From: Lachnospiraceae bacterium
GTDB lineage: Bacteria; Bacillota; Clostridia; Lachnospirales; Lachnospiraceae
DNA: 64,000 nt
Direction: 5' to 3'
Assembly: GCA_017472605.1 (NCBI GenBank)
Contig: JAFUPV010000027.1
Location: forward strand, 1-64,000
Shown: in pieces, positions 1 through 6,692 of the stretch
Numbering within the stretch: position 1 is the stretch's first letter
How the letters are laid out: each line of letters begins with the position of its first letter
Program-made: the position numbers and the translations under genes
The notes under the pieces: model-generated
Seen by the model: only the letters and a program-made list of their open reading frames with translations
Told to the model about the DNA's origin: nothing
Databases searched by the model: none

Positions 1-132
1 TGGGACGTAATTTATTATGCTTTGGCTATTGCAAACATATATGATATCGACATAGAACAAGTTGCTAAAGTTAAGTCTGAGATAAACGAAAGCAGATATC
101 CTTCTAAAGTTAAGTTTGAAGAAGGTAGATAA
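1..132 (+). CDS. MazG-like nucleotide pyrophosphohydrolase, C-terminal part
   Basis: Open at the left window edge; 43 codons remain before TAA at 130-132. The motif WDVIYYALAIANIYDIDI followed by a charged helix is typical of the last helices of small MazG-like proteins, which hydrolyse non-canonical or excess NTPs. The catalytic ExxE helix would lie outside the window, so activity cannot be judged. The stop codon is directly joined to a palindromic boundary element shared with most downstream junctions, so this looks like the first visible member of a cassette string. Family assignment is inferred from a short tail and is only moderately sure. Confidence 0.6.
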   Translation, partial: WDVIYYALAIANIYDIDIEQVAKVKSEINESRYPSKVKFEEGR

Positions 133-143
133 ATTCCAATTTG
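131..143 (+). repeat. Cassette boundary element copy 1
   Basis: AAATTCCAATTTG: arms AAATT/AATTT around CC. It overlaps the TAA stop upstream and is followed at once by ACGGAGG, the ribosome site of the next gene. Confidence 0.75.
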
Positions 144-156
144 ACGGAGGTATGCC

Positions 157-597
157 ATGAACGAGAAAATAGAAATTCTGGAAGAACGAATTTCGGCTGA
201 AGAATACATAGACTTTCTTAAAAGAACTGACTTGGGTTCTCAATATCCAAAAGAGCGATTCGAAAGTAGAATTGCAAAACTTGTCAATACCGTTTCCATC
301 AGCCTTGTGGCCAGAAACGAAAGTGGTACTGTAGTAGGAGTTTTGTTTGGCTTAACTGATTTTGCTTATTGGCTTTATGTAACCGATTTAGGTGTAGACA
401 GAACCTGTACAGGACAGGGTATTGGCAGAAAGTTGATGAAAAAGGCCCATGAAATCGCAGGCGGAGAAAAGAATATTGCAGTTTATTTGATTGCCAACGA
501 GAATGCGGTTGGATTCTATGAGAAACTGGGTATGAAGAAATCTGTGGATGTCATGCAGTATAACAAAATCGAATGGACAGATTTTGTGGTAGAGTGA
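157..597 (+). CDS. GNAT family N-acetyltransferase
   Basis: 146-residue protein with the full GNAT core. The acetyl-CoA pyrophosphate-binding loop is GQGIGRKLM at about residues 86-94, after beta-4 (LYVTDLGVD), and the C-terminal signature is NENAVGFYEKLGM near residue 114. It would transfer an acetyl group to an amine; the acceptor is unknown. ATG is placed 7 nt after GGAGG. It lies between two boundary elements with no promoter of its own, so it is probably read from upstream. Length is normal for a stand-alone GNAT. Confidence 0.88.
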   Translation: MNEKIEILEERISAEEYIDFLKRTDLGSQYPKERFESRIAKLVNTVSISLVARNESGTVVGVLFGLTDFAYWLYVTDLGVDRTCTGQGIGRKLMKKAHEIAGGEKNIAVYLIANENAVGFYEKLGMKKSVDVMQYNKIEWTDFVVE

Positions 598-611
598 CAA
601 ATTGCAATTTG
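598..611 (+). repeat. Cassette boundary element copy 2 (perfect palindrome)
   Basis: CAAATTGCAATTTG is a perfect 14-nt palindrome. It starts directly after the TGA stop (595-597) and is followed by TGAGG, the ribosome site of the next gene. Best-formed copy of the series. Confidence 0.82.
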
Positions 612-622
612 TGAGGTTGATT

Positions 623-1105
623 ATGAATATAGAATTCGAGGAATTGACACATCAGAATTTTTCAGATGCATGCAAAATTGATAGAGATGACATACCTGAG
701 GATTTTGTTGATACAGCTTTAACTATAATGAATATTACTGATTATGGCATTGATCATCATTATATTGGACATACCTTCGTTGTGAAGTATAATGAGAATC
801 CGATTGGGCTCATTCTTTTGGGCGAGGCAATTCCTTGGAAAACAGACCCACCAGAAATGAGTAAAGAGCCATTTTATCGTTTGATGGGATTTGTAGTTGA
901 TAAAAAATATCGTGGTTGTGGAATTGGAGGAGAGATATTGGAAAGGGCTATAAAAATTGTTTATCGTGACTTTGGCAAGCGCCCGATTGCCTTGGGGTGC
1001 CATAAGGATAATATTCAGGCGGAACATTTTTATTTACGACATGGGTTTAAGAAAACAAATGTTATGGAAGGAAATGACTACTATTATTTACGTTCTGCTA
1101 ATTGA
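623..1105 (+). CDS. GNAT family N-acetyltransferase
   Basis: 160-residue GNAT. The binding loop YRGCGIGGEILERA follows beta-4 (LMGFVVDKK), and the end carries a HKDNIQAEHFYLRHGF motif typical of the last strand and helix. Acceptor substrate unknown. ATG at 623 is preferred over an in-frame TTG at 602, because TGAGG sits 7-8 nt upstream of the ATG and the TTG lies inside the palindromic boundary element. Part of the co-oriented cassette run, with no independent promoter seen. Confidence 0.87.
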   Translation: MNIEFEELTHQNFSDACKIDRDDIPEDFVDTALTIMNITDYGIDHHYIGHTFVVKYNENPIGLILLGEAIPWKTDPPEMSKEPFYRLMGFVVDKKYRGCGIGGEILERAIKIVYRDFGKRPIALGCHKDNIQAEHFYLRHGFKKTNVMEGNDYYYLRSAN

Positions 1106-1106
1106 T

Positions 1107-1119
1107 AAACTTAAATTTG
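1107..1119 (+). repeat. Cassette boundary element copy 3 (diverged)
   Basis: AAACTTAAATTTG begins 1 nt after the TGA stop at 1103-1105. It is an imperfect palindrome and, unlike most copies, is not followed immediately by a ribosome site; about 60 nt with a promoter come first. Confidence 0.5.
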
Positions 1120-1143
1120 TTGAAATAAATTAAAACAGTCTCA

Positions 1144-1172
1144 TTGCATGAAGAATTAAAATGGACTATATT
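1144..1172 (+). promoter_or_regulatory. Predicted sigma-A promoter inside the cassette run
   Basis: -35 TTGCAT (1144-1149), 17-nt spacer, -10 TATATT (1167-1172), directly ahead of the ribosome site CAGGAGG of the alkyltransferase-like gene. It would restart transcription within the string of otherwise promoterless genes. Prediction from consensus only. Confidence 0.5.
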
Positions 1173-1192
1173 TAGAGCAGGAGGTGGATGAT

Positions 1193-1672
1193 ATGGCAAA
1201 TGAAGATAAAAAAGATTTTAATGCTATGTTGCATGACAATAAGGATATGCCAAAGTTTCAGATAATTACGGATTTGAAAAGCATTGAGAAATATGGCGGA
1301 GACCGAATGTATTTTGCACCGCCTATCGACTACGACAAAATAATGAAACAAATTCCGCATGGCAAAGTAATCACAGTTGGAAAGATAAGAGAATATTTTG
1401 CAAAAAAGAATGGAGCAGATTTTACAGAGCCTATTACCGCAGGAATTTTTGTATCTATCGTAGCATGGGCAAGCTATCAGCGTGAAGAAGAACACACACC
1501 CTATTGGCGAACTCTAAAGGCAAATGGTGAGTTAAATGAAAAATATCCTGGTGGCATTGAAGCCCAAAGGGAAATGCTGGAAAGAGAAGGACATACCATT
1601 ATTCAAAAAGGACGAAAAAATATCAAATACTATGTAAAAGACTATGAGAGTGTTCTTTTTGATTTGAGTTAA
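1193..1672 (+). CDS. MGMT-fold alkyltransferase-like (ATL) protein
   Basis: 159 residues. The C-terminal half matches the DNA-binding domain of O6-alkylguanine alkyltransferases: GKVITVGKIREYF (helix-turn-helix start), then YWRTLKANGELNEKYPGG and REMLEREGH. The active-site PCHR of true methyltransferases is replaced by a tryptophan-containing YWRT. This fits ATL proteins, which bind alkylated guanine and flag it for repair without removing the alkyl group. ATG 1193 has CAGGAGG 8 nt upstream; a GTG nine bases earlier is in frame but overlaps that site. Role in repair is inferred from family. Confidence 0.72.
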   Translation: MANEDKKDFNAMLHDNKDMPKFQIITDLKSIEKYGGDRMYFAPPIDYDKIMKQIPHGKVITVGKIREYFAKKNGADFTEPITAGIFVSIVAWASYQREEEHTPYWRTLKANGELNEKYPGGIEAQREMLEREGHTIIQKGRKNIKYYVKDYESVLFDLS

Positions 1673-1688
1673 CAAAATTCAAATTTTT
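1673..1688 (+). repeat. Cassette boundary element copy 4
   Basis: CAAAATTCAAATTTTT starts directly after the TAA stop (1670-1672). It keeps the AAATT..AATTT arms with extra A and T and is followed by CAGAGG, the ribosome site of the next gene. Confidence 0.65.
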
Positions 1689-1701
1689 CAGAGGTAGCAG
1701 G

Positions 1702-2214
1702 ATGAACATTCAATTAGTTAAATTGACAAAAGCATATAAAACGCATCTGGAAGATATGATGCAAGAATGGACTGGTACAGGTGAAAAAATAGTTCCGTAT
1801 GCGATCAGAAAAAATGATTATCACAATTTTGATTACTATTTAGAGAATTTGGAGATTACGCAAGAAACGGACGGGAAAGTGCCAGATACCACGTTGTTTT
1901 GTTTGGATGCAGATCGAAATATTTTTGTGGGAGCAGTAAATATCAGGCATTATCTCACAAAAGAAATGCTGGTTCATTCAGGTCATATCGGTGACGGAAT
2001 AAGACCGACAGAGAGAAGAAAAGGGTACGCAACTGCCATGATTGGTCTGGCTTTAAAAGAGGCAAAGAAGTTGGGAATCAGTAAGGTACTGATGGTTTGT
2101 GATAAGAATAATATTGGCTCAGCCAAAAGCATCATAAACAATGGTGGTATTTTGGAGAATGAGGTTGAAGTTGACGGCGTTGTAGAACAAAGATACTGGA
2201 TTGATTTGGTGTAA
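1702..2214 (+). CDS. GNAT family N-acetyltransferase
   Basis: 170-residue GNAT. Beta-4 (GHIGDGIRPTERRKGYATAMIG) leads into the loop RRKGYATAM, and the end has MVCDKNNIGSAKSIINNGG, the usual last helix. The N-terminal part with an Asp/Glu-rich segment resembles acetyltransferases near-universally annotated only as GNAT in Clostridia; the substrate is unknown. ATG 1702 follows CAGAGGTAGCAGG. Flanked on both sides by boundary elements. Confidence 0.87.
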   Translation: MNIQLVKLTKAYKTHLEDMMQEWTGTGEKIVPYAIRKNDYHNFDYYLENLEITQETDGKVPDTTLFCLDADRNIFVGAVNIRHYLTKEMLVHSGHIGDGIRPTERRKGYATAMIGLALKEAKKLGISKVLMVCDKNNIGSAKSIINNGGILENEVEVDGVVEQRYWIDLV

Positions 2215-2228
2215 CCAATCCAATTTGG
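2215..2228 (+). repeat. Cassette boundary element copy 5
   Basis: CCAATCCAATTTGG starts directly after the TAA stop (2212-2214) and is followed by CGAAGTGAGG. Outer CCAA/TTGG arms are complementary; the inner part is imperfect. Confidence 0.68.
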
Positions 2229-2246
2229 CGAAGTGAGGAAATGATT

Positions 2247-2717
2247 ATGCTTGAACTTGCAAAAGAAACAGATTTTGATGAAGTTAATCGTCTGGCTCGG
2301 CAGGTAACGGCTCACCATGCTCAGTGGACACCTGATATGGAAATCGTAGAGCATCCCTATCCTATGGATTATTTCCAGGAGTGTATCAAGCCGGAATCAA
2401 TTTGGGAAAGCGCTATATATGTAATGCGGCAAAATGGAAGCGTTGTTGGGTATATGCGTATCTATCTTTGGAACACAAATAGCACGGTATCTGCAAAACG
2501 GACTATTTTAAGTATCGATGACATCGGTGTGGATGAAGTGATGCGCAACCAGGGTATTGGTACCAAAATGATGACCCAACTGACAACCCTGGCGAAAGAG
2601 GAATGGGGTTGCAGCAGCATCTGCTTGTATGTAGACGCTCCTAATGAGAACGCAAGGGCCTACTACGAAAAGTGTGGCTTCCATGTGCGTAATATTGGTA
2701 TGATATTGGACTTATAA
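2247..2717 (+). CDS. GNAT family N-acetyltransferase
   Basis: 156-residue GNAT with the loop NQGIGTKMMTQL after beta-4 (SIDDIGVDEVM) and a typical end, YVDAPNENARAYYEKCGF. Such proteins acetylate small amines or protein N termini; the acceptor here is unknown. Two ATG codons lie close (2241, 2247). The second is preferred because GAAGTGAGG then has normal spacing. Its stop is followed by the weakest junction of the run, where no clear palindrome is visible. Confidence 0.87.
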   Translation: MLELAKETDFDEVNRLARQVTAHHAQWTPDMEIVEHPYPMDYFQECIKPESIWESAIYVMRQNGSVVGYMRIYLWNTNSTVSAKRTILSIDDIGVDEVMRNQGIGTKMMTQLTTLAKEEWGCSSICLYVDAPNENARAYYEKCGFHVRNIGMILDL

Positions 2718-2753
2718 ATGAAAAGGTCAAACGACAATCGGAAGGGTAAACTT

Positions 2754-3209
2754 ATGGCAGATAATTTATTCTGTAAAGATTTTTCTTATATTGAGGGAGA
2801 AACGATAGAACTTCGCCTGATCGATACATACGAAGGCGGAAATGGTGCGCTGCCATTCTATTGGTGGGATATTGTACAAAAAACGAATCATGCAGCTGTT
2901 GGAAAAATCAGTTTACGAATTGGGCATAACTACCATTCCTATTACAATGGCAACATTGGCTATGAGGTGGATGAGGGATATCGAGGGCATCACTATTCGC
3001 TGTTAGCCTGTCAGCTTGTGTTGAAAGTTGCACAGTATCACAACATGGAAAAAATATATTTAACATGTGATTACGATAATGTGGCATCCTGTAAAACGAT
3101 TGAAAAACTTGGAGCAAAGCGAATTGAAGAAGTTTTGCCTCCCAAAGACTACATATACTACAATGATGAAATGAAAATACATAAAATATATGAACTGAAC
3201 ATCGTTTGA
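2754..3209 (+). CDS. GNAT family N-acetyltransferase (RimJ/RimL-like)
   Basis: 151 residues. The order GNIGYEVDEGYRGHHYS, then CDYDNVASCKTIEKLGAK, is the RimJ/RimL-type GNAT pattern in which the binding loop is RGHHYS rather than the classical QxxGxG. ATG 2754 has AAGGG about 8 nt upstream; an in-frame ATG at 2718, abutting the previous stop, lacks a ribosome site. Substrate unknown. The gene ends with TGA directly abutting a boundary element. Confidence 0.85.
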   Translation: MADNLFCKDFSYIEGETIELRLIDTYEGGNGALPFYWWDIVQKTNHAAVGKISLRIGHNYHSYYNGNIGYEVDEGYRGHHYSLLACQLVLKVAQYHNMEKIYLTCDYDNVASCKTIEKLGAKRIEEVLPPKDYIYYNDEMKIHKIYELNIV

Positions 3210-3223
3210 CAAATCCTAATTTG
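3210..3223 (+). repeat. Cassette boundary element copy 6
   Basis: CAAATCCTAATTTG, directly after TGA (3207-3209) and followed by TGGAGG. A near-consensus copy: arms CAAAT/ATTTG around CCTA. Confidence 0.8.
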
Positions 3224-3237
3224 TGGAGGTATTATAC

Positions 3238-3723
3238 ATGGCAATGAGAATTTTGGAGGTAAAAAAGGAAAATTGTCCTGCTGCACGCCTTATTGGCAAA
3301 AAATATAAAAATACACCTAATTGGGGTGAATGGTGGGAAAACGGGTGGTTTTCAATTTTAGAAAAAATAGAGCGCCTTCCAATGAATGGCGATGCTTATA
3401 TTGGAGCAGTGCATATTGCAAATGGAATGCCTGAGCGTTGGATTGGCATGTTCTTTCCAACAGACACCCACGTTCCATATGGATTTGAATATATAGATAT
3501 TGCCCCTATGGAATACGCGGTGTGTTATTTGTATGATAAAGAAAACAGCGGTGATTTTTATACAATGGATACTCATAATATGTGCTTGGATGAATTAAAA
3601 GCACTTGGTTTGAAACGCAAAGAGGATGATTGGTGTTTTGAACGATATAGTTGTCCTGGATTCACTACACCAGATGAGAAGGGTAATGTTATTTTGGATT
3701 ATGCGATTTCCATAGAAGATTAA
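3238..3723 (+). CDS. GyrI-like / AraC effector-binding-domain protein
   Basis: 161-residue stand-alone small-molecule-binding domain of the GyrI-like superfamily. Recognised by PAARLIGKKYKN near the start, WWENGWFS, YIGAVHIANGMPERWIGMFF in the middle and YDKENSGDFYTMDTHN toward the end, the order seen in SHOCT-free GyrI-like proteins. In larger regulators this fold binds the effector; no DNA-binding domain is present, so it may sequester or hydrolyse a ligand. ATG 3238 follows TGGAGG. Ligand unknown. Confidence 0.72.
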   Translation: MAMRILEVKKENCPAARLIGKKYKNTPNWGEWWENGWFSILEKIERLPMNGDAYIGAVHIANGMPERWIGMFFPTDTHVPYGFEYIDIAPMEYAVCYLYDKENSGDFYTMDTHNMCLDELKALGLKRKEDDWCFERYSCPGFTTPDEKGNVILDYAISIED

Positions 3724-3724
3724 G

Positions 3725-3738
3725 CAAATCCTGATTTG
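3725..3738 (+). repeat. Cassette boundary element copy 7
   Basis: CAAATCCTGATTTG, one base after the TAA stop (3721-3723) and followed by AAGAGG, the ribosome site of the next gene. Confidence 0.76.
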
Positions 3739-3752
3739 AAGAGGACGATTCC

Positions 3753-4787
3753 ATGAAATTAGAAACGAGCAGATTAGTCATTCGCCATCTGAAAGAATCC
3801 GATTGGCAGGCGATGAAAAGCGTATTCGTTGATTTTAATAATTCAAAATATGCTGCCTATGATATGCCTCTGCCCACAGAGGATGAAGAAGCCAAAGTAT
3901 TAACAAAACGGTTTACTGCCAGCAAATTGTTTTTCACTGTTTTTCTAAAAGAATCAAATGAAATGATTGGATATATATGCTTTCATAAAGATGGAAATAC
4001 ATATGATTTGGGTTATTGTTTCCACTCTGCATACCATTCAAAGGGGTATGCTTACGAAAGTACAAATGCACTTGTCAAATACTTTGCCGACAAATGCGGT
4101 GTAACCAATTTCGCAGCAGGAACAGCGATTGATAACATACCCTCCTGTAAACTGCTGGAAAAGTTAGGGTTTGCTTGTGTTTCAATCGAAACAGTATCCT
4201 TTGACAATGCATTTTCTTTTCAGGGCGGAAATTTTGTGTTGAATATAAGTGAAACAAATTTGAACTTGAAGGAGAATTTTGGTATGAAGATAGAGATATA
4301 CCCATTAGATAAAGTTGTGATTGATGGAGTGGAAATTTTCCTTGGGATGGAACAATCTGCTGTTGAAACCGCAATCGGAAAAGGTCAACTTATTGGAAAG
4401 AGATGTTATTACTTCAATAGCGAGATGGCGATTGATTACAGCAATAACAAAGTAGAATACATAGAGTTTCTGTGTGGGGTGGATGGTATGCTGAAACCTG
4501 CAATCTATGGAATATCTGCTTTTGAGACCCAGGCGAATGACTTGTTTGAGGTTTTGAAAGAGCGAAACAATGGTGCAATTGGCGATAACGAAAATGGATA
4601 TTCGTATCAGTTTCAAAATATTAGTGTTGGTGTTTATCGTGAATCAGTTCCAGAAGAAATCAAAGAAATGATTGAGGAAGCTGTAAGTTTTGGAGAGCCT
4701 ATGTCCGATCATGAAATAGAGTATGAAATGAAAAGAGCCAATCATTGGGCAACCATCGGTGTTGGTGTTGCAGGATACTATCAATGA
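3753..4787 (+). CDS. GNAT fused in frame to a second conserved protein
   Basis: 344 residues made of two proteins that look independent. Residues 1-167 form a RimJ/RimL-like GNAT (TSRLVIRHLKESDW start, NIPSCKLLEKLGF end). From residue 178 (ATG 4284) a second module starts, MKIEIYPLDKVVIDGVEIF, ending near GVAGYYQ; I recognise it as a conserved Firmicutes protein of unknown function. The joint contains a boundary element (4255-4268) and AAGGAG, a complete ribosome site 10 nt before the internal ATG. So the second gene's own start signals survive inside the fusion. Loss of one base near 4248 or of the stop codon would explain the fusion. Confidence 0.8.
   Translation: MKLETSRLVIRHLKESDWQAMKSVFVDFNNSKYAAYDMPLPTEDEEAKVLTKRFTASKLFFTVFLKESNEMIGYICFHKDGNTYDLGYCFHSAYHSKGYAYESTNALVKYFADKCGVTNFAAGTAIDNIPSCKLLEKLGFACVSIETVSFDNAFSFQGGNFVLNISETNLNLKENFGMKIEIYPLDKVVIDGVEIFLGMEQSAVETAIGKGQLIGKRCYYFNSEMAIDYSNNKVEYIEFLCGVDGMLKPAIYGISAFETQANDLFEVLKERNNGAIGDNENGYSYQFQNISVGVYRESVPEEIKEMIEEAVSFGEPMSDHEIEYEMKRANHWATIGVGVAGYYQ
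4255..4268 (+). repeat. Cassette boundary element copy 8, trapped inside a fused gene
   Basis: CAAATTTGAACTTG followed by AAGGAG and, after a 10-nt spacer, ATG 4284. Identical layout to the other junctions, but no stop codon precedes it in the reading frame of the upstream GNAT. Confidence 0.7.
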
Positions 4788-4817
4788 TGAATTACTATTG
4801 TATGGAGGAATATTGAA

Positions 4818-5369
4818 GTGTTTGCATACCATGTAGTAACAGATAGACCGATGTATGTTGGACAACGGATTATGTTCGATGAAGAACATCATAGTGGAGT
4901 TTATCAAAGAGTATATGATAAAATAGATATCGTGAACGATATTTATGCTAATCCTGCTAAATATGATGTAGAAACATTAGAACATCATACATCAGTTGCA
5001 TTAAGAGAATTAGCATTAGAGGAAGTCAGACAGAAAAAATATCCGCAATATCCTTCAAGAATGGGGTGTTTATATGTATCTAAATCTTTTGAAGAAGCAG
5101 AAAATTGGGGAAAGTTCTTTGCTGAAATCGGTAGACCTACATACCATATTGTAAAATTAGATATCGAAGGTAATTGCTTTATTGGAGATGCTACAAAATG
5201 TTTTAAAGGGCGGTTGAGCAAGGAAGAAAACCTGAGGCTTGCTGAGGTTTATTGGGAAAGTAATGTAGATACAGAAAATAAGCAGGCAATTTGTGAGATG
5301 TTGGTAAACGGTCAAATTACAGTTGTTGAGATAGTAAAAGAAATAAATGCTAATATACAAAGTAATTGA
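4818..5369 (+). CDS. DUF2441 family protein
   Basis: 183 residues starting with GTG 4818, nine bases after GGAGG. The opening FAYHVVTDRPMYVGQRI and the central PSRMGCLYVSKSFEEAENW match DUF2441, small proteins reminiscent of ADP-ribosyltransferase-like or RES-like folds but without established activity. A role in nucleotide or NAD chemistry is only a guess. The junction upstream (4788-4803) has at most a degenerate palindrome, whereas the downstream one is clear. Confidence 0.65.
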   Translation: MFAYHVVTDRPMYVGQRIMFDEEHHSGVYQRVYDKIDIVNDIYANPAKYDVETLEHHTSVALRELALEEVRQKKYPQYPSRMGCLYVSKSFEEAENWGKFFAEIGRPTYHIVKLDIEGNCFIGDATKCFKGRLSKEENLRLAEVYWESNVDTENKQAICEMLVNGQITVVEIVKEINANIQSN

Positions 5370-5383
5370 CAAACTGCAATTTA
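5370..5383 (+). repeat. Cassette boundary element copy 9
   Basis: CAAACTGCAATTTA directly after TGA (5367-5369). The ribosome site GAGTGAGG follows after a slightly longer spacer than elsewhere. Confidence 0.65.
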
Positions 5384-5406
5384 TCTGTGAGAGTGAGGTT
5401 ATACTA

Positions 5407-5967
5407 GTGGCGATTTTTTATCTTGTACGACACGGTGAAGCTGATTACAGCGAAATGTTAGAAAAAGGCTTTTATGGTTTTGGGCGTTCGTTTGCACCAT
5501 TATCAGAAAAAGGAATAAATCAAGCAGAAAAGACAGCGATTGATGATAGATTAAAGTCGGCAGAATTGATTGTTTCATCTCCTTACACAAGGGCGTTGCA
5601 GACAGCGTCTATCATTTCAAGAGAAACTGGTTTGAAAATATGCGTTGAAGTTGATTTGCACGAATGGGAACCAGATAAAACGAATCAATATACTACTTCG
5701 GAAGAAGCATTTATGCTTACACGAGAGTTTAACTTATATAAAGGAGAATATCCAAAAGGTCAGCAGATGAGATGGGAAACATTAGATGAAGTTAGAAAAA
5801 GAATGCGCAGAGTTGCTGATAAATATGCAAACTATGACAAAGTCATCTTTGTTGGTCATGGTATGGCTTTTCGAACGCTCATGTATATAGAGCAGATGAA
5901 GCCTGCTGAAATAATTGAATGCAGCTATCATTTGGGACAGGATGATTGTATATATTCATTTCACTAA
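5407..5967 (+). CDS. Histidine phosphatase family protein
   Basis: 186 residues of the phosphoglycerate-mutase-like histidine phosphatase superfamily. YLVRHGEADYSE at residue 5 holds the phospho-accepting His, SSPYTRALQTA the second Arg, and VFVGHGMAFRTL near residue 157 the second catalytic His. It would remove phosphate from a small molecule; substrate unknown. GTG 5407 is chosen because GAGTGAGG precedes it by about 10 nt and the RHG motif is then at its usual distance from the N terminus. Confidence 0.87.
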   Translation: MAIFYLVRHGEADYSEMLEKGFYGFGRSFAPLSEKGINQAEKTAIDDRLKSAELIVSSPYTRALQTASIISRETGLKICVEVDLHEWEPDKTNQYTTSEEAFMLTREFNLYKGEYPKGQQMRWETLDEVRKRMRRVADKYANYDKVIFVGHGMAFRTLMYIEQMKPAEIIECSYHLGQDDCIYSFH

Positions 5968-5979
5968 ATTCCGGCTTTA
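5966..5979 (+). repeat. Cassette boundary element copy 10, not followed by a gene
   Basis: AAATTCCGGCTTTA overlapping the TAA stop (5965-5967), followed by the ribosome-like CGGAGAG but no open reading frame. It leads within 30 nt to a terminator, as if the following cassette were lost. Confidence 0.5.
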
Positions 5980-6008
5980 CGGAGAGATAGAAAGTAACAG
6001 AAGCTTTG

Positions 6009-6043
6009 AATCAGTGGAGGAACGAAACATCCACTGATTTTTA
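6009..6043 (+). terminator. Rho-independent terminator closing the cassette run
   Basis: AATCAGTGGA (6009-6018) pairs with TCCACTGATT (6030-6039) around an 11-nt loop and is followed by a short T run. It would end transcripts entering from the cassette genes. Confidence 0.75.
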
Positions 6044-6061
6044 AAAGAAAGCAATCGGGGG

Positions 6062-6075
6062 AAATTTGAATTTTG
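6062..6075 (+). repeat. Cassette boundary element copy 11
   Basis: AAATTTGAATTTTG followed by TGAGAAG, the ribosome site of the YdcF-like gene. No upstream stop codon abuts it, since the terminator region intervenes. Confidence 0.5.
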
Positions 6076-6086
6076 TGAGAAGTAAC

Positions 6087-6692
6087 ATGTTAGTATCAAA
6101 AATAAAAGAAGAAGATTTAACGATTGAAATAGTAGATAAATTATTATTTCAGGGGTTGGAAGATACAGGAGAAACGGTTGACTGCATTCTTGTGTTGGGA
6201 AGCTTAAAGGCGGCTAAGTATCGAGTCCCTGTGGCGGTAAACGCTTATCATGCAGGCAGAGCAAAGAAAATAATGCTATGCGGTGGTGTCTTAAGAGATT
6301 TTCCGGACGGAACGTGCAGGGAAGCAGAGCATATGCGCAAAGAAGCGTTAAAATCAGGCGTGGCTGTGGAAGACGTTATTTTGGAGAATTCCTCGCAGAA
6401 TACAGTGGAAAACATCCTGTTTGCGCTGGTAGAATTGCAGCGAACCTTTTGGCTGAATCGAATTCATAAAGTGCTTCTGGTTACAACTGCCTATCATATG
6501 AGACGCAGTCTGGCGATTGCAAGATATTTGTTCCCAAGGCATATAGACATCCTTCCCTGTCCCGCAAACGACAGCAATACGAAGCGGTACAATTGGATGA
6601 ATTCATCGGAAGGGATTGCACGGGCAAAAGGCGAAGCAATGAATCTTGTTCGATGTGTAAGGAACGGTGTGATTCCAGATTTTGAAATATGA
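6087..6692 (+). CDS. YdcF family protein (DUF218)
   Basis: 201 residues. The pattern VDCILVLGS near the start, NAYHAGRAKKIMLCGG, ENSSQNTVENILFA and VLLVTTAYHMRRSLAIAR is the YdcF/SanA (DUF218) fold, a Rossmann-like domain that may bind S-adenosylmethionine. Exact role unknown; related proteins affect envelope barrier functions. No signal peptide or membrane anchor is seen, so it is probably cytoplasmic. ATG 6087 has GTGAGAAG upstream, and an in-frame TTG at 6066 lies in the boundary element. Confidence 0.82.
   Translation: MLVSKIKEEDLTIEIVDKLLFQGLEDTGETVDCILVLGSLKAAKYRVPVAVNAYHAGRAKKIMLCGGVLRDFPDGTCREAEHMRKEALKSGVAVEDVILENSSQNTVENILFALVELQRTFWLNRIHKVLLVTTAYHMRRSLAIARYLFPRHIDILPCPANDSNTKRYNWMNSSEGIARAKGEAMNLVRCVRNGVIPDFEI

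Follow-up and report, generated by a model that had tools for sequence, protein, structure and literature searches.

Among the systems closest to the one described here, pdif modules consist of single genes between short palindromic sites, each site being 28 bp long with two 11-bp arms; they are moved by XerC/XerD and have no recombinase of their own. Miniature inverted-repeat transposable element (MITE)-like or inverted-repeat passenger-gene transposons carry inverted end words around a gene. The attC sites of integrons are described in passages of the PubMed Central (PMC) article PMC2727003 as 57-142 nucleotides (nt) long, poorly conserved in sequence and recognized by their folded structure, and an extract of PMC9024848 reports one complete integron in Firmicutes from the IntegronFinder 2.0 survey. 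The MGMT-dfrF element of Enterococcus faecalis is presented in portions of PMC9484755 as a unit transposon with integrase, excisionase, and replicase genes. Here we analyze the first 64 kb of contig C72 (hereafter the window) from a Lachnospiraceae genome of 3.68 Mb in 75 contigs, where co-oriented short genes are strung along bases 1-6075 with a short palindrome at most of their junctions. This array is probably a string of mobile one-gene cassettes, organized like those of an integron, in which the 14-nt palindrome serves as the exchange site.

The observed part of this reading is that the word stands at junctions, that the units hold one gene each, that their neighbors change, that shared DNA breaks at the word, and that a platform carries different inserts. 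In the window, the string is bounded by a MazG-like gene ending at 132 and a YdcF-like gene starting at 6087 (both names assigned by eye). A 13-nt dyad word occurs in 10 of the 12 junctions between these points, allowing up to three mismatches to either of two consensus words, A (AAATYCCARTTTG) and B (AAATTTGAAKTTG); the junctions at 2717-2754 and 4787-4818 lack it. Shuffles of the same 12 junctions (1000 trials) yielded a mean of 1.4 and a maximum of 6 with the word. The motif is not equally frequent at ordinary junctions: none of the window's 27 remaining same-strand junctions has it. Other genomes contributed to the derivation of the words, yet these are not fully independent of the window, because the search started from it. 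Across both strands of the whole genome, CAAATYCNAATTTG occurs with at most one mismatch at nine places, five of which are within the 6-kb array. A position-blind count in the window with two mismatches was not significant (13 against 9.8 expected, a number reached by 21 of 100 shuffles), so the signal lies in the position of the word. The array is organized as follows.

130-143, + strand: element 1, word A (AAATTCCAATTTG at 131-143; 0 mismatches), between the MazG-like gene and the first GNAT gene
157-597, + strand: cassette gene for a GNAT acetyltransferase (PF00583)
598-611, + strand: element 2, a perfect dyad (CAAATTGCAATTTG; 1 mismatch to the consensus)
623-1105, + strand: cassette gene, GNAT (domain match)
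1107-1119, + strand: element 3, word B (AAACTTAAATTTG; 2 mismatches)
1193-1672, + strand: cassette gene, MGMT-like (DNA_binding_1; from Pfam family and relatives), with a conserved leader at about 1130-1192
1675-1687, + strand: element 4, word A (AAATTCAAATTTT; 2 mismatches)
1702-2214, + strand: cassette gene, GNAT (Acetyltransf_3; domain match)
2215-2227, + strand: element 5, word A (CCAATCCAATTTG; 3 mismatches)
2241-2717, + strand: cassette gene, GNAT, with no recognizable element downstream (the junction scores 5 mismatches)
2754-3209, + strand: cassette gene, GNAT (Acetyltransf_3; domain match)
3210-3223, + strand: element 6, word A (CAAATCCTAATTTG; 1 mismatch)
3238-3723, + strand: cassette gene without a Pfam family, with a 75% identical copy in genome G096 by sequence comparison
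3725-3738, + strand: element 7, word A (CAAATCCTGATTTG; 2 mismatches)
3753-4787, + strand: GNAT gene fused in frame, via element 8, to a second gene (from 4284) without a Pfam family (344-residue open reading frame)
4256-4268, + strand: element 8, word B (AAATTTGAACTTG; 1 mismatch), within the open frame
4818-5369, + strand: cassette gene, DUF2441 (domain match), with no clear element upstream
5371-5383, + strand: element 9, word A (AAACTGCAATTTA; 3 mismatches)
5407-5967, + strand: cassette gene for a histidine phosphatase (PF00300)
6062-6074, + strand: element 10, word B (AAATTTGAATTTT; 1 mismatch), the final element of the array, preceding the YdcF-like gene

These data refine the first-pass annotation of the window. 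It had described eleven copies of one consensus; a repeated word is indeed present, but as two related words rather than one. The perfect palindrome it placed at 598-611 can be read directly, and the small genes are all co-oriented as it stated. Its position for the word, directly after the stop codon, is right for 8 of the 12 junctions (at the stop or within 2 nt, with element 1 overlapping the stop) but wrong for two elements: the one at 4256 follows no in-frame stop, as the gene reads through, and the one at 6062 starts 94 nt past the stop. Since two cassette genes share the frame at 3753-4787, the palindrome there would be translated within the 344-residue protein. The genes of the array comprise five with GNAT domains, a sixth GNAT inside the fusion, and MGMT-like, DUF2441, histidine phosphatase, and family-less members. 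The array is also richer in A+T than the rest of the window, as had been claimed, with a guanine plus cytosine (GC) content of 37.1% compared to 45.4%; the lowest 6-kb stretch sampled in the rest has 41.4%. No Rfam family matched the window at the gathering threshold. Contig C70 and the window start have an overlap of 141 identical bases, beyond which C70 extends the string upstream by about nine more small genes, in a part with a GC content of 43.9%.

Elsewhere in the same genome, at about 34240-34530 of contig C69 (locus L005, 1224-1514), a lone small gene with an internal in-frame TGA is preceded by a B-like word (CAAGTTTAAATTTAG), and CAAATCACAATTTG follows its stop. It is possibly a single cassette. 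Two other genomes of the genus contain no homologous locus in which an empty site could be seen.

DNA shared between loci often stops at the word. We compared 106 loci chosen for holding cassettes, sites, or platform flanks, and collected collapsed segments of 200-3000 nt with at least 88% identity. Of the 82 segments obtained, 17 have both ends within 12 nt of a half-word, 25 have one, and 40 have neither; random placement gave both ends at half-words in a mean of 0.25 and a maximum of 3 segments. Counted singly, 59 of 164 ends are at half-words, compared to a null mean of 7.5 and maximum of 15. For example, a 107-residue cassette is 99.5-99.7% identical at the DNA level in Blautia sp. XA-2221 (L187) and G102 (L266), with differing neighbors. 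Likewise, G138, G102, G047, and G232 share a block of three genes (radical-SAM-like by eye) at 96-98% identity but differ in the sequence to its right. Six blocks are common to G138 and G102, in changed order. In or near these rearranged blocks lies a gene for a 57-58-residue helix-turn-helix-like protein (EKRCYTVQELQEILGVSRPTIYN; L261 9151-9327 and 16875-17048; L266, reversed, 4115-4291).

At nucleotide resolution, 68 of 142 counted ends fall inside the dyad, 41 of them in its middle six positions, a descriptive count in which both strands and related pairs are included. In the four contexts of dfrF, the left break precedes GAATTTG and the right break is CAAATTCCAG^TTTG (the caret marks the break) or lies at most 4 nt beyond this point. 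Several breakpoints fit CAG^TTTG, while others lie at the dyad center before GAATTTG. The dyad centers themselves differ between partners (e.g. CAAACTT^GAATTTG, CAAATTA^GAATTTG, AAAAAAG^GAATTTG).

Cassettes are also found in a recurrent platform, which was recovered by searching with the flanks of a lone MGMT cassette. Its order is a promoter-like box (TATAAT-like by eye), a half-dyad, one or more cassettes, a half-dyad, and a terminator-like stem: the left flank ends with TATAATATGGRTATGAAGAAA and the dyad start, and the right flank comprises the dyad end, ACAACTTCATATCC, and the stem. With equal inserts collapsed, 10 genomes carry 13 distinct inserts, which range from 416 to 2917 nt and include dfrF in two cases. 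Inspection by eye showed no left half-dyad in L316 and a weak one in both L311 and L312; the right half-dyad is weak or absent in L078, L312, L315, and L321. The platforms are often in Tn916/Tn1545-type elements. Their settings, with gene names largely by eye, include the interval between YdcP-like and FtsK-like genes, a position before a relaxase-like gene, others beside a regulator and a replication gene or adjacent to a gene that looks chromosomal, and a plasmid of 4.3 kb that has a Rep gene. On a Clostridioides difficile plasmid, YdcP and FtsK genes flank a metallo-hydrolase insert whose right end lacks a clear dyad. A gene for a PD-(D/E)XK nuclease family transposase (PF12784; L361 3677-4789) adjoins a platform on a Clostridioides plasmid, which could be chance.

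The Enterococcus faecium plasmid pELF_JHP35 has two platforms in tandem beside a Tn1545-type integrase gene, one holding an MGMT-like gene and the other dfrF, a cyclase gene, and a TfoX-like gene. The cyclase/TfoX junction carries a single word that immediately follows the stop and precedes the ribosome site, as junctions in the window do; the dfrF/cyclase junction has a single dyad about 60 nt past the stop. The insert in the small plasmid's platform is of the same cyclase family. On this plasmid (locus L360), the trimethoprim resistance gene dfrF lies in its platform at 3806-4300, and copies that are 99.7% identical and share its cassette ends are present in G133, G138, G384, and G028. In portions of PMC9484755, dfrF of the E. 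faecium isolates is reported to have aligned while the other genes of the MGMT-dfrF element did not, which fits single-gene movement.

On the basis of these comparisons, the earlier proposal that one gene plus one short palindrome forms a recombination unit is supported: the word bounds single genes in differing neighborhoods in different genera, shared DNA stops at the word beyond chance, and the platform holds differing cassettes between the same half-words. An alternative is that the units are one-gene mini-transposons, in which a transposase, perhaps a single-strand enzyme of the HUH type, acts on the dyads as terminal inverted repeats and arrays grow by insertion beside older copies. This would also make the genes mobile cassettes and differs from the exchange-site reading in mechanism alone. 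It would account for words A and B being inverted relatives (B matches the reverse complement of A at 13 of 16 positions by eye) and for lone genes with one word at each end (L005, L077, and the MGMT set). We consider it unlikely, given that adjacent cassettes often have one dyad in common, that 10 genomes reuse one and the same platform position, and that three lone insertions (L005, L077, L320) show no target duplication by an eye inspection that was not systematic.

The exchange site is often larger outside the window, where the unit of one gene and one palindrome needs qualification. In many arrays, the intergenic site consists of dyad A followed by dyad B 9-14 nt away, about 35-40 nt in all, mostly right after a stop and right before a ribosome site; the single palindromes of the window look like a short form of it. 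The loci examined contain 34 rows of such pairs (28 distinct) compared to one for the reversed pattern, a count biased upward because many loci were fetched by word B, including loci from other phyla that are probably chance. A total of 106 stretches with word B gave 80 loci, of which the 37 named as Clostridia were inspected; some of the remaining loci, from other phyla, are probably chance matches. Viral contigs contributed 15 stretches with word B and a ribosome site, and phage records gave no match. A covariance model (R1) built from 19 sites, for which E-values are rough, matched 71 of 299 family genomes at E ≤ 0.02, with about 6 expected if those E-values hold. In the class sample, it matched 8 of 69 genomes, one of them from the same family; the strongest match, in G430 from another family, is a full site between two small genes.

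The site is conserved in sequence. Conservation is confined to about 14 columns (14 junctions). Covariation in the two-dyad site does not exceed that of shuffles (0.107 compared to 0.139), and folding is mixed, being clearly better than in shuffles for 3 of 8 sequences. A selected hairpin of the attC kind is thus not supported and was rejected. Exact 14-mers matched 111 of 299 genomes, and none of the 11 matches listed in other loci (+ strand) is directly after a stop codon. Their reversed-pattern control was poor because the reversed word contains TAA; bare counting of 14-mers in the window and the 299 genomes was dropped as a test, since context matters.

Genes of the window recur singly in other genomes. 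A DNA search with the array, in which two candidates were scored per genome, matched 86 of 397 family genomes, the window's own counted, and the listed matches are single genes or gene parts. The genes are found in other contexts elsewhere, in a comparison that spans species, not strains. The MGMT-like cassette (window 1104-1680) has a junction-to-junction match at 80% in G138, G384, and G133, at a site unrelated to the window; relatives of its gene are in the platform of these three genomes and on the E. faecium pELF plasmid. The MGMT-like homologues compared, whether or not they have words, are preceded by a conserved leader (TCAAACNGTCTCATTGCAT and close variants). By eye, six homologues (L050, L052, L053, L054, L059, L061) have a B-like word before the leader and an A- or B-like word after the stop, and others (e.g. 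L055, L058, L062, L063) have leader and gene without clear words. In L043 (G221:C14), a Lachnospiraceae from roe-deer gut, 32 listed co-oriented small genes extend over 20 kb with dyads at some junctions only.

The homologues without clear words bear on the view that selection keeps the dyad as a signal in RNA or translation, acting in stop-start spacing, mRNA processing, or ribosome loading, with arrays formed by ordinary recombination. The dyad does stand just upstream of the ribosome site, sometimes past the promoter-like box. It is also found after the last gene, before the terminator-like stem, in most platforms; it bounds shared segments; homologues of the same gene elsewhere do without it; and its folding is weak and mixed, without covariation. 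Taken together, we regard a signal function of this kind as very improbable.

Several findings weigh against the array being a string of exchangeable cassettes. Among the 17 segments bounded at both ends, by our reading 9 are the MGMT cassette and the other 8 represent six further units, and the 40 segments bounded at neither end are partly element backbone. The reordering between G138 and G102 is weak evidence, because only one of the six blocks has half-words on both sides. Clear words are missing at homologues of 157-597 in G068, G290, and G207, of 2767-3199 in G288, and of 3771-4247 in G268. In the first 20 kb of contig C70, the word is at one of seven scored junctions, and the two-dyad model does not match the genome of the window. 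The copies in the window were not seen to move, and no homologous locus was present in the same-genus genomes. Empty platforms were not found either: a search of 299 genomes with a narrow exact pattern returned 28 matches (24 genomes), and a dyad stood in the middle of none; variants such as AATTTCATATCC would escape this pattern. A first candidate recombinase, truncated by the contig end of the G047 array, was dropped as it is present in 4 of 19 genomes. Finally, no IntI above the TIGR02249 cut-off was found in 13 genomes (the window's, a genus mate, and 11 with related cassettes; other array genomes such as G047, G102, G171, G207, and G290 were not searched).

The lack of an IntI above the cut-off bears in turn on the possibility of a true integron or a cluster of attC sites lacking an integron-integrase (CALIN), with an IntI encoded elsewhere moving cassettes between divergent attC sites. 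Such a system would share the co-oriented single-gene cassettes, promoter-like platform, and imperfect inverted-repeat sites seen here, and the CAG^TTTG breakpoints recall the G^TT of integrons. We did not file the system as an integron because no IntI exceeds the cut-off in the 13 genomes searched and the sites, at about 35-40 nt against 57-142 nt, are too short and too conserved, with no covariation. Evidence on the R box (GTT/AAC) is mixed: 6 of 19 sites have GTT at the column expected in their second half, and 8 have it with a one-column shift. An integron origin is the least probable of the explanations discussed. Weaker TIGR02249 matches were present in all 14 control genomes as well, and no adjacent IntI-type integrase was seen beside platforms. 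An Xer-like gene beside the G096 cassettes has close relatives (54-62%) in G000, G322, and G384, and we regarded it as a normal gene of the chromosome.

The recombinase that the first-pass annotation had suggested looking for at the array ends did not appear: none was noticed by eye among roughly 11 kb listed on C70, and none was found to be common to the array genomes. For this reason the mechanism below is one that we infer. One might dispense with a dedicated enzyme altogether, if microhomology or homologous recombination joined short repeated junctions after conjugation or transformation; breakpoints do lie in short repeated words, and conjugative elements would supply donor DNA. The one-gene precision and the breakpoints at the dyad center would still call for explanation, and a 14-nt word is short for RecA-dependent exchange. 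We judge this route quite unlikely.

If the palindrome is an exchange site, the left arm CAAATT would be the end of the upstream cassette and the right arm AATTTG the start of the downstream one, with exchange at or near the dyad center. A site-specific recombinase supplied in trans would act on one dyad, or on two dyads 9-14 nt apart, to excise and insert cassettes; an inserted gene would face the same way and so be read from the shared upstream promoter. A single-strand transposase or an integron-like enzyme is a candidate for this role. Spacer homology is needed by most tyrosine recombinases studied, according to passages of PMC2727003, whereas the dyad centers seen here are not the same in both partners. 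The window array would be the single-dyad form of such a string, and probably an old, partly decayed one. More broadly, and with slightly less than even confidence, we propose a second cassette system of Gram-positive gut bacteria, independent of integrons, in which a trans-acting recombinase recognizes a short palindrome as double-stranded DNA and exchanges it at its center, with no homology required there, and Tn916/Tn1545-type elements spread promoter-terminator platforms into Lachnospiraceae, Clostridioides, and Enterococcus.

Searches of the open-access PMC literature found no description of the word among the papers listed, and four 12-13 nt site words retrieved only papers on unrelated subjects, judged by title. 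If the proposal is correct, Bacillota would have their own cassette system, on conjugative elements, where integrons are considered nearly absent. This would explain how small enzyme genes, including dfrF, spread singly between anaerobes of the gut and reach Enterococcus and Clostridioides. A sequence test for such cassettes is now available, and the search for a new recombinase has been made concrete.

The system resembles integrons in its co-oriented one-gene cassettes, its promoter-like platform, its inverted-repeat intercassette site, and the resistance gene among its cassettes. The counterpart of attI, with promoter and co-oriented cassettes, is the platform with its 13 inserts and a box recognized by eye. 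The system differs from integrons in that the site is a 13-14 nt dyad, or two within about 35-40 nt, conserved in sequence; in that the platform has a boundary on either side and ends with a terminator-like stem; and in its occurrence in Bacillota, where integrons are rare according to an extract of PMC9024848. Like pdif modules, it has single genes between short palindromic sites, but its conservation spans about 14 columns rather than a 28-bp two-arm site. Inverted end words around a gene are shared with MITE-like transposons, whereas here neighbors often share end words, the platform is reused, and target duplication is lacking by eye at three lone insertions. The MGMT-dfrF element combines MGMT and dfrF genes with those for integrase, excisionase, and replicase; in the present system, by contrast, genes are separate cassettes, each having half-dyads of its own.

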